39,355 bases of DNA. Source: an uncultured Christensenella sp. (lineage in GTDB: Bacteria > Bacillota > Clostridia > Christensenellales > UBA1750). The notes beneath the pieces are model-generated. The model was not told the DNA's origin. It searched no databases and saw only the letters and a program-made list of their open reading frames with translations. Position 1 is the first letter of the stretch; every line of letters starts with the position of its first letter. Below are positions 19,579 through 22,226 of this stretch, piece after piece. The stretch spans positions 1-39,355 of the forward strand of contig CAOKIU010000015.1 of assembly GCA_948468595.1 (NCBI GenBank), in the 5' to 3' direction. A program made the position numbers and the translations under genes.

Positions 19579-20535
19579 TTAAAGCGCATTTTTTCCTGCA
19601 ATCTCATCCAGCGTCATCTTGTGCAGTCCCAGCACGACCGAGGCCTCCGGGTTGGCCGCCAGGCGGATGGCCGGGTGCCCCCAAGGCGTCCAGGCGTACT
19701 TGTTAACGTGCTCCTCCATCGGCCGGCGCAGGTCCTCGCCCATCCGGGCAATGCCGCCGGAGAGGACGATGACCTCCGGGTCGTAGGCGACGATGAGATT
19801 GCAAAGGTTGGCGCTCCAGCAGTCCAGCGACCGCTTGAGCAGTTTTTGGGCGAGCAGGTCGCCCTCGTCCGCGCAGCGCTTGAGGTTTTTGTAGTCGATG
19901 ACCTCCAATCCGCTCAGGGCGCTGACCTCAAAGAGGGGGTCCTTGCGGGCGAACAGCGGCAGGGACCAGGAGCTGGCGTTGGCCTCCATGCAGCCGATGT
20001 TGCCGCAGTTGCAGGGCGTGGCGTCGGGCCCGGCCTCAATGACCATGTGCCCGCCGATGCAGGCCGCCTGGAAGTGCTTGCCGCGAATCAGCCTGCCGTC
20101 CATCATGGCCGCCGCGCCAACGCCGGTGCCGAAGATCATCATCACGGCGTCGCGCGTGTCCTGGGCGCAGCCGTAGGCCACCTCGCCGATGAGCGCGGCG
20201 TTGGAGTCGTTGTCCAGGACGAAGGGGCAGTCGAACGTGCGCTTGACCCAGCCCTTTAAATCGTAGCCGATGGCATCGACAAACTTGCCGTTGGCCGAGA
20301 CCACCACCTTTTCCTTGGGATTGACCAGGCCCGGGAAGGCGATGCCCAGCCCGTCCACGCGGTCAAGGCCCATCTCCGCCATCATGGCGCGGCCCTCCCG
20401 CTCCGCCGTGTCCAGGTTCTTTTGGTACTTTCCGTCGCGGTAGGCCTCCACCATGCGCTCCTTTAGGATCTTGCCGTCCTCAAGCAGCGCCAGCTTCATG
20501 CGCGTGCCGCCAATATCCATTGCCAGTGTAATCAT
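19579..20535 (-). CDS. ROK-family sugar kinase
   Basis: 318 residues of the ROK family. The phosphate-binding DIGGTRMKLA is at 7-16 and the catalytic Asp110 is in LDNDSNAAL. The ATPase loop is FGTGVGAA. The zinc site is His163 (GGHM) with Cys175, Cys177 and Cys182 in CNCGNIGCMEA. No N-terminal helix-turn-helix is present, so it is a kinase (glucose, fructose or N-acetyl sugar type) and not a ROK repressor. The ribosome site is a modest AAGGGG. Only 25 bp separate its start from the inverted-repeat element, so the element may have replaced its natural promoter region. Confidence 0.9.
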   Translation of the reverse strand: MITLAMDIGGTRMKLALLEDGKILKERMVEAYRDGKYQKNLDTAEREGRAMMAEMGLDRVDGLGIAFPGLVNPKEKVVVSANGKFVDAIGYDLKGWVKRTFDCPFVLDNDSNAALIGEVAYGCAQDTRDAVMMIFGTGVGAAAMMDGRLIRGKHFQAACIGGHMVIEAGPDATPCNCGNIGCMEANASSWSLPLFARKDPLFEVSALSGLEVIDYKNLKRCADEGDLLAQKLLKRSLDCWSANLCNLIVAYDPEVIVLSGGIARMGEDLRRPMEEHVNKYAWTPWGHPAIRLAANPEASVVLGLHKMTLDEIAGKNAL

Positions 20536-20560
20536 GTTTTCATAACCCCTTATTTTTTAT

Positions 20561-21234
20561 CTCCCTTTTCGGAAAGGTGTTCCCAATGGCCGTTACGAAC
20601 CTTGATAAGAAAAAACATCGGTTTAATCCCGAGAACATCAAAAAGCATTGTTTATAACATGCTCTTCATGTACGCCTGGAGAGCAGTGTATTCACGCTGA
20701 TATGAGCCTCTTTTTTCCTCGCTTACATCAGCATAAAATTGGTGTTGCGAGAACAACTCAATCGCTTCTTGCAGAGGAATCCACTCCGGCTCCAGTCCAC
20801 GACGTTTCTCTGCATCTGTCAGATGCATCTTCCCTTCACCAATCACTTCACATACAAAATAGTGACTGATATAACGATATTCCTCATAGTATTCATACAA
20901 CGTCAGAAACTGCTCTATAGGACGCACAATCAGACCCGTTTCTTCCTCTGCTTCCCGCACGCAGCATTCTTCGGGCGTTTCACCCTCCTCCAACCCGCCG
21001 CCGGGTACCAACCACCATCCGGACGCCGTTTCGTGGGTAAGAAGAATCTTCCCATTCTGCACAATCACTGTCCGGCTGCCCGCACGCGTCTTGGTGAAAG
21101 TTTCAAAACGATTCGCACCAAGTATTTCTATCTCCTTCATGTCGCTTCTGCCACCTATTCTTGGGTTTATTCCCAAAGTATTTTTCGGCATTCTCGCAGC
21201 TAATTCTAATGGATACACAATTCCGAAAAGGGAG
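20561..21234. mobile_element. inverted-repeat-bounded cassette carrying a Nudix gene
   Basis: CTCCCTTTTCGGAA (20561-20574) is the exact reverse complement of 21221-21234. Extending inward, 23 of 29 bases pair between 20561-20589 and 21206-21234. The outside flanks TATTTTTTAT (20551-20560) and TTTTTTTTAT (21235-21244) agree at 9 of 10 positions, like a target-site duplication, though both are low complexity. By hand count 20701-20940 is about 44% G+C, against about 68% at 21601-21660. There is no transposase, so a non-autonomous element mobilised in trans is the best reading. Confidence 0.7.
20652..21140 (-). CDS. Nudix hydrolase
   Basis: 162 residues. A perfect Nudix box, G-x5-E-x7-REAEEETGL, begins at GGLEEGETPEEC after the strand WWLVPGG. 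The fold hydrolyses nucleoside diphosphates linked to another moiety, and the specific substrate is not evident. The ATG at 21140 is chosen, with AGGTGG about 11 nt upstream. In-frame codons further up reach into the terminal repeat and lack a ribosome site. Codon use is clearly richer in A and T than in the neighbours, and the gene sits wholly inside the inverted-repeat cassette, both signs of transfer. Confidence 0.9.
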   Translation of the reverse strand: MKEIEILGANRFETFTKTRAGSRTVIVQNGKILLTHETASGWWLVPGGGLEEGETPEECCVREAEEETGLIVRPIEQFLTLYEYYEEYRYISHYFVCEVIGEGKMHLTDAEKRRGLEPEWIPLQEAIELFSQHQFYADVSEEKRGSYQREYTALQAYMKSML

Positions 21235-21284
21235 TTTTTTTTATCTATCCACCCTCATCAGGCGCCTGCGCATCCGCCCGCGCC

Positions 21285-22226
21285 CTAGATCAGCGCCAAG
21301 GATTTGAGCGCGAAGATCCACAAAAACATCGTCAGCACCGCCAGGAGCGAGCCAAAGACCACCAACCCGCCCGCCAGTTCGCTGTCGCCGTCCATCTGCT
21401 GGGCCATGGTAAAGGAGGAGACGGCGGGCGGCGCGGCGAGCATCACCATCAGGGCGATGAGCTCCTCGCCGCGGAAGCCCAGCATCACGGCGATGGTGAC
21501 AAAGATCAGCGGCATGATCACCAGCCGGCCCGCCACGCCTATGGCCAGCTGCCGGACGCAGCCCTTAACGGAGCTGAAGTTGAACTCCGCGCCCAGGATC
21601 ACCAGCGCAAGGGGCGTGGCGACCTTGGCCAGGTCCCCTATGGGCTTGAGCAGCACCTGCGGCAGCTTGATGTTCAGCGCGAGCATGACAAGCCCCAGCG
21701 CCGAGGCGATGATGAGAGGGTTGGTCGCGACGGACTTTGCGATCTTCCAGAAATTTGGACGGCCGCCGCGGTTGATCTCCAGGGCGATGACGGAGAAGGC
21801 GTTAAACATCGGCACCACCACGGCGATGACCAGGGACACGGCGCCCGTATTGCCGCCCTCCCCGCACAGGGAGATGAGCACCGGCAGGCCGAAGATGACG
21901 AAGTTGGAGCGCATGATGCCCTGGATCAGCACGCCGCGGCGCCGCTTCTCCTTTTCCACCAGCGGCACCACGATCATGCACAGGGCGAATTCCGCGATGA
22001 CAAAGAGCACGGCCGTGAGGATCAGCGGCCCGTTAAAGGCCGTGGTCAGGTCGGTCACGACGATGTTATAAAACAACAGGATGGTCAAAAATACGCGGAA
22101 GACGACGTTGTTCATCTTTCGCAGCGTGACCTCGTCCACCATCTTGATGCATTTGATGAAATAGCCCAGCGCCATCATCAAAAACAGGGGCAAAACCACG
22201 TTAAAGGCCAGGATTAGATTTTCCAT
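21285..22226 (-). CDS. AEC-family transporter
   Basis: 313 residues with about ten membrane helices. It starts MENLILAFNVVLPLFLMMALGYF and keeps the family pattern of a mid-protein NFVIFGLPVL and a later TPLALVILGAEF. It would be a plasma-membrane secondary carrier of organic acids or similar anions. It is related to the transporter at 723-1676 but clearly diverged. The start ATG has GGAGATGG upstream. It precedes the ROK gene on the same strand, with the Nudix cassette now between them. Confidence 0.88.
   Translation of the reverse strand: MENLILAFNVVLPLFLMMALGYFIKCIKMVDEVTLRKMNNVVFRVFLTILLFYNIVVTDLTTAFNGPLILTAVLFVIAEFALCMIVVPLVEKEKRRRGVLIQGIMRSNFVIFGLPVLISLCGEGGNTGAVSLVIAVVVPMFNAFSVIALEINRGGRPNFWKIAKSVATNPLIIASALGLVMLALNIKLPQVLLKPIGDLAKVATPLALVILGAEFNFSSVKGCVRQLAIGVAGRLVIMPLIFVTIAVMLGFRGEELIALMVMLAAPPAVSSFTMAQQMDGDSELAGGLVVFGSLLAVLTMFLWIFALKSLALI

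Follow-up and report, generated by a model that had tools for sequence, protein, structure and literature searches.

A Nudix gene cassette in an uncultured Christensenella belongs to a widespread family of non-autonomous elements

In the window, by which we mean the whole 39,355-nucleotide stretch of DNA that was analysed, a single Nudix hydrolase gene lies between inverted repeats, and the locus raises the question of whether those repeats delimit a mobile element and, if they do, of what kind. The original prediction was of a non-autonomous transposable cassette with a metabolic or sanitising passenger. It was largely right, yet too modest about the extent of what it had found: positions 20561-21234 represent a single member of a widespread class of non-autonomous elements whose ends recur in pairs and whose targets are duplicated, and four congeners lack the insert between the same two genes. 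The findings do not point to the element having a metabolic or sanitising role, because the Nudix gene is one among dozens of interchangeable passengers.

A low-G+C cassette beside a ROK kinase gene

The terminal 14-bp arms (20561-20574 and 21221-21234) pair at 14 of 14 positions, and the repeat extends inwards with 20 of the first 24 positions paired and 23 of 29 overall. The left end (LE) is the 24-bp terminal inverted repeat CTCCCTTTTCGGAAAGGTGTTCCC at 20561-20584 on the plus strand and the right end (RE) is the 24-bp terminal inverted repeat CTCCCTTTTCGGAATTGTGTATCC at 21211-21234 on the minus strand; each matches its family consensus without a mismatch. The flanks agree at nine of ten positions over 10 bp and at seven of eight over 8 bp. 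The arms, the extended pairing and the flanks were recomputed with the values first claimed, and the lower G+C content was likewise borne out (47%, against approximately 62% in the flanks), a value above the family median of 35%. The element lies 25 bp from the start codon (20535) of an intact ROK-family kinase gene (19579-20535, minus strand; Pfam ROK 6e-44), as had been stated, and on its other side is an intact Mem_trans (AEC-type) permease gene (21285-22226, minus strand; Pfam Mem_trans 1e-31); both genes are outside the element. The predicted target-site duplication exists but its proposed length of 10 bp does not hold: perfect 8-bp duplications in relatives point to a true length of 8 bp, comprising a left copy TTTTTTAT (20553-20560, unstranded) and a right copy TTTTTTTT (21235-21242, unstranded) that agree at 7/8 positions, an imperfect match within a T-rich tract.

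The Nudix gene (20652-21140, minus strand; Pfam NUDIX E=5.7e-21) is the only convincing gene inside the element, as the original prediction had it, and it is read from RE towards LE like other passengers. Its frame was listed as an open reading frame at 20652-21218; translation probably begins at the ATG at 21140, with AGGTGG (21151-21156) upstream, giving a protein of 162 amino acids and not the 188-amino-acid GTG frame. An NCBIfam search with the protein returned no equivalog above the cut-off and its closest solved relatives are generic MutT/Nudix proteins, so no substrate is predicted. The enzyme itself is ordinary.

In first-order resampled windows, 14-mer inverted pairs within 2 kb arose by chance with a mean of 1.15 and a maximum of 9, and the real 39-kb window contains 11 such overlapping pairs. 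A window of this size can readily contain a perfect 14-bp inverted repeat, and proof that the element is real therefore needs recurrence.

Recurrence of the ends in the home genome and across Clostridia

The exact 14-mer occurs five times in the 2.48-Mb genome from which the window comes, and all five occurrences are cassette ends; they belong to the window copy and two more, one complete and one broken by a contig end. Searching that genome with the window element gave an inverted pair at C14:32990-33912 and a right end at C7:192-229. The C14 copy is 915 bp long with 34% G+C in surroundings of 62%, it carries a single CAAX-protease (Rce1-like) gene and it is bounded by a perfect 8-bp duplication, TAAAATAA. 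The third copy (G000:C7:1-222; L007) has an intact right end and its remainder is past the contig end. That right end is upstream of a gene cluster whose first open reading frames are MraZ- and RsmH-like (named by eye from sequence), and the 34 visible residues of its passenger, unnamed by Pfam, show a weak similarity to the beginning of a cytidine-deaminase-like stretch from another host (12/30 identical).

A query made of the two flanks joined without the window element aligned along its whole length with three congeners, at 81-82% identity, and in two neighbouring segments with a fourth. In each of the four congeners the ROK gene and the permease gene are separated by a short spacer with no insert. 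Thus, the expectation of an empty site was met as far as insert-free congeners are concerned; the exact pre-insertion sequence was not recovered, because the congener spacers do not align base for base. The ends are absent from 296 other genomes of the order, save for one chance-like match with two mismatches, and a search of 100 relatives for close relatives of the window element gave only a 25-bp match.

Looking for inverted pairs of the ends elsewhere, as had been suggested, was productive in many other genomes as well as the home genome. An exact scan of public genomes with CTCCCTTTTCGGAANNGTGTNYCC found at least 119 stretches; among the matches listed, nearly all came from Clostridia, either Lachnospiraceae or others, and one was an Erysipelotrichales record. 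Whole-genome scans of 59 hosts gave 1-20 ends per genome and almost none with a reversed-pattern control. Elements were assembled by pairing ends on sequence, with weak ends also paired by their duplication, and beyond the home genome this yielded 77 elements with both ends, which have 61 distinct interiors between them; most are in Lachnospiraceae, and their lengths range from 62 to 2604 bp with a median of 726 bp. Identical 8-bp duplications flank 44 of the 75 elements for which both flanks are available (permuted mean 0.9), and duplications of at least 7/8 flank 52 of the 75 (permuted mean 3.1); among the 73 pairs whose acceptance rested solely on their ends, the corresponding counts are 42 and 50. 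The target duplications in the first set of elements are approximately 95% A/T. One 768-bp cassette was found at six sites, in copies that are 97-99.7% identical and each have a different duplication; the labels of their hosts are Clostridiaceae, Lachnospiraceae, Erysipelotrichales and Clostridia.

The window element had no match in plasmid collections. With the chassis ends as query, plasmid and phage collections yielded nothing more than short matches ascribed to chance and, from a human faecal phage record, a single end of 21 bp; scans of viral contigs found phage-borne copies only. The terminal sequence was not found as an element end in the open-access literature, where the six matches, in unrelated studies of mouse, human cells or plants, were chance-like. 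The cassettes belong to a large and apparently undescribed family of transposable holders for genes, without a transposase of their own. Its novelty is in the cargo repertoire, in the host range and in conserved ends that bear a predicted promoter and surround unrelated genes.

Conserved ends, exchangeable cargo and the search for a transposase

The family ends start with CTCCC, and left and right ends differ consistently (LE ...GGAAAAGTGTTCCC, RE ...GGAATTGTGTACCC). The resemblance extends past the terminal repeat: at positions 24-100 the REs of 25 clusters are alike around unrelated interiors, and positions 24-70 of the LE form groups of ten and six. In 54 of 56 interiors the longest open reading frame is read in the RE-to-LE direction. 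Distances between start codon and RE are typically 75-125 bp, with a median of 116 bp. Within the RE terminal repeat is a -35-like TTGTGT, and a -10 element with at least 5/6 matches is found 16-18 bp past it in 37/56 REs, compared with 5/56 LEs at the same offset and approximately 8% of shuffles. From these data we infer promoter activity: in most copies, the RE usually holds an inward-facing promoter. The RE of the window copy has the TTGTGT without a recognisable -10, its interior being degraded or unusual.

Several arrangements of ends depart from the simple pair. A phage-like region (L105:1784-3943) has four LEs in the same orientation, 574-944 bp apart and each beside small genes, with no right ends recognised, and two further loci (L046 and L263) have two repeated LEs each; such repeats are possibly tandem cassettes or a co-opted promoter/operator. 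Five phage-type cassettes (L047, L102, L109, L246 and L251) have a distinct left end, CACTGTATATTGGAACTACTTTTCG, and carry helix-turn-helix or RHH-like regulators in phage contexts; one of them, L246, has a perfect AAAGGGAA duplication. The 34-bp CTCCCTTTTCGGAAAAGTGTTCCCGAAAAGGGAG (L116:6002-6035) looks like two fused ends with nothing between them.

Scanning 50 passengers with Pfam identified eight GNAT proteins, three Nudix proteins and two CAAX proteases, together with a histidine phosphatase, a methyltransferase, an AAA kinase-like protein, an S51 peptidase, NADAR, DUF4291, DUF1877, Imm19, Imm51 and an ABC transporter; many passengers are small membrane proteins or lipoproteins without a family. 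Many are of kinds tied to stress, resistance or competition (acetyltransferases, immunity proteins, NADAR, Nudix). An ABC ATPase and permease behind the same right end form a two-gene cargo in three genomes (L327, L340 and L244), the largest natural cargo seen. A 2604-bp P-loop kinase cassette (L199:797-3400) contains a group II intron reverse transcriptase reading frame, and thereby an intron within a cassette.

Cargo-free copies of 62-264 bp were also found (L059, L101, L113, L328-L330 and L337), six of them with perfect duplications. The 119-bp L059 and the copies L101, L328-L330 and L344 have the same LE and RE as the cassettes, and L059 looks like a left and a right scaffold joined together. 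The criterion for a MITE (short and cargo-free, with the same ends and a duplication) is met by these relatives and not by the gene-carrying window copy. Three cargo-free copies of 62-182 bp in one genome (L328, L329 and L330 in G348) have the variant ends GGATTTGTGTTTCT / CAGAAAAGTGTTCTC, with perfect 8-bp duplications in two of the three, and the 264-bp L113:3424-3687 has a perfect duplication and several copies of GAGACCCAA in both orientations.

A transposase gene bounded by the same ends, for which it had been proposed to look, was not found. None appears in the 25 families listed for the 50 Pfam-scanned passengers, and the families listed for 87 open reading frames within 3 kb of unpaired ends include no recurrent transposase. 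The IS1595, IS256, ISL3 and IS66 families make 8-bp duplications. None of the four was detected above cut-off in the home genome, and none of their loci in host genomes is bounded by the family ends or has them more often than chance would give. The exception is a solitary LE beside an IS1595-type reading frame (L099/L216), which we regard as coincidental since the IS1595 family is present in only two of ten hosts. Pairs more than 1.3 kb apart were opened as candidate autonomous elements and rejected: L199 is the kinase cassette with the intron reverse transcriptase, L200 and L325 have lipoproteins as cargo, L327 contains its two ABC-transporter genes and L244 has two unrelated ends. The mobilising enzyme acts in trans, or is seldom present, or has ends that have diverged beyond the reach of the scan. 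Within the IS4 family, some subgroups combine CT ends with duplications of 7-9 bp (PMC2266710, Table 1), and by this analogy an IS4-family parent of the cassettes may be considered, though only as a lead.

Mechanism, rival explanations and known systems

We are confident that the cassette at 20561-21234 is a DNA transposon, non-autonomous and of the mobile insertion cassette (MIC) type. The ends recur, targets are duplicated, congeners lack the insert, passengers keep one orientation between ends that are conserved around unrelated genes, and identical cassettes occupy different sites. Transposition in trans is inferred: a DDE-type transposase supplied from elsewhere would recognise the asymmetric ends, LE CTCCCTTTTCGGAAAAGTGTTCCC and RE CTCCCTTTTCGGAATTGTGTACCC, and insert the cassette into A/T-rich targets of 8 bp. 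A copy would normally have one passenger gene, with its ribosome-binding site, inside its ends, and in most copies transcription would proceed from the RE promoter, with TTGTGT as its -35 followed, after 17-18 bp, by TATAAT or TATAAA. The ends form a conserved chassis around unrelated genes, from which we infer that passengers were exchanged during evolution. Several points weigh against the reading: no transposase with these ends was found, the window copy has an imperfect duplication, no recognisable -10 and a G+C content above the family median, and its exact pre-insertion sequence was not recovered. A bolder form of this proposal, in which the conserved ends are a dedicated gene-capture vehicle and an active mechanism repeatedly loads genes, together with their ribosome-binding sites, at one fixed place downstream of the RE promoter, is possible without being favoured.

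Four other accounts of the locus must be weighed. That a chance inverted repeat in A/T-rich intergenic DNA happens to surround a native Nudix gene can effectively be dismissed: perfect 14-bp inverted repeats do arise by chance in such windows, but many genomes have these exact ends again, in inverted pairs flanked by 8-bp duplications, and the congeners have no insert. It is very unlikely that the cassettes are decayed insertion sequences, either with the transposase deleted and chance DNA in its place or as independent elements with similar ends and no common chassis. The terminal repeats are IS-like and MICs are thought to be IS-derived, on the example of IS231 and MIC231 (cited in PMC3913671); however, no transposase remnant was seen among 50 passengers, passenger orientation is fixed with start-codon distances clustered and, as a strong argument against decay, the ends are alike as far as position 100 around unrelated genes.

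The remaining two accounts concern how genes came to be inside the ends. An integron-like, site-specific system, in which a recombinase swaps passengers at a site inside the chassis, would fit the promoterless gene with its common promoter and fixed orientation, and the passengers are of a similar kind (GNAT and immunity proteins, with a Cass2-type domain near unpaired ends). We nevertheless consider it improbable: neither a recombinase nor a shared internal recombination site was identified, and the 8-bp duplications at the outer ends indicate transposition. A composite MITE, in which two cargo-free copies flank a gene and the outer ends move the whole, with capture as in TIME-COMP, remains possible without being favoured. 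In its favour, some copies without cargo share the LE and RE of the cassettes, and TIME-COMP is an experimental precedent (PMC4133298), but a scan of the elements found no inner ends inside the cassettes, and random capture without selection would not be expected to cluster the distance from start codon to RE. The composite MITE and the trans-mobilised MIC-type transposon that we prefer are not mutually exclusive, the former being one route of capture for the latter.

The closest known kind of element is the mobile insertion cassette, or cargo-bearing MITE. MIC231 of Bacillus cereus is mobilised by IS231A, and the qnrD and qnrS2 mic elements are further examples (PMC3913671). The structural features of a MIC are all present: two inverted repeats, no transposase inside or nearby among the families listed, a target-site duplication and a passenger unrelated to transposition. 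The family thus resembles MIC231 in its inverted repeats, passenger, duplication and lack of a transposase, although mobilisation in trans has been shown for MIC231 and is inferred here; it differs in its terminal repeat CTCCCTTTTCGGAA, its 8-bp duplications, its hosts and the absence of a known parent IS, and differs from MICs in having a far larger passenger repertoire and an inward promoter in the right end. Elements of the IS231 subgroup have CAT ends and 10-12-bp direct repeats (PMC2266710), and membership of IS231/MIC231 (IS4 family) is ruled out by ends that read CTCCC and not CAT and by duplications of 8 bp and not 10-12. TIME elements are Tn3-derived MITEs with 38-bp repeats and 5-bp duplications, and one TIME / TIME-COMP element has weak promoter activity (PMC4133298). 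They share with our family a MITE-type mobilisation of passengers, but TIME-COMP has whole MITEs on both sides whereas single ends bound the gene here, and the 24-bp ends of different sequence and the 8-bp duplications exclude membership. Transporter insertion sequences, mentioned in PMC3129680, are ISs with passenger genes; they too place genes unrelated to transposition in an IS-like element, but they keep their transposase and none was found in the family.

The ends themselves provide a simple search key for the whole pool of cassettes, for the missing transposase and for the mechanism of capture. Integrons are the textbook route by which bacteria share single accessory genes, and their cassettes, which are defined by an attC site and an integrase, carry small, single, orientation-fixed and diverse accessory genes that are served by a common promoter. 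The present cassettes are like them in holding single, small and diverse genes in a fixed orientation and unlike them in moving by their own inverted ends with their own promoter; the families listed for passengers or for reading frames near unpaired ends include no integrase. These observations suggest that gut Clostridia possess a pool of single-gene cassettes of comparable diversity, which move by transposition and bring their own promoter. Should the conserved ends prove to be a dedicated gene-capture vehicle, they would be a transposon-borne counterpart of the integron, with hundreds of mobile cassettes shared by gut Clostridia and their phages.
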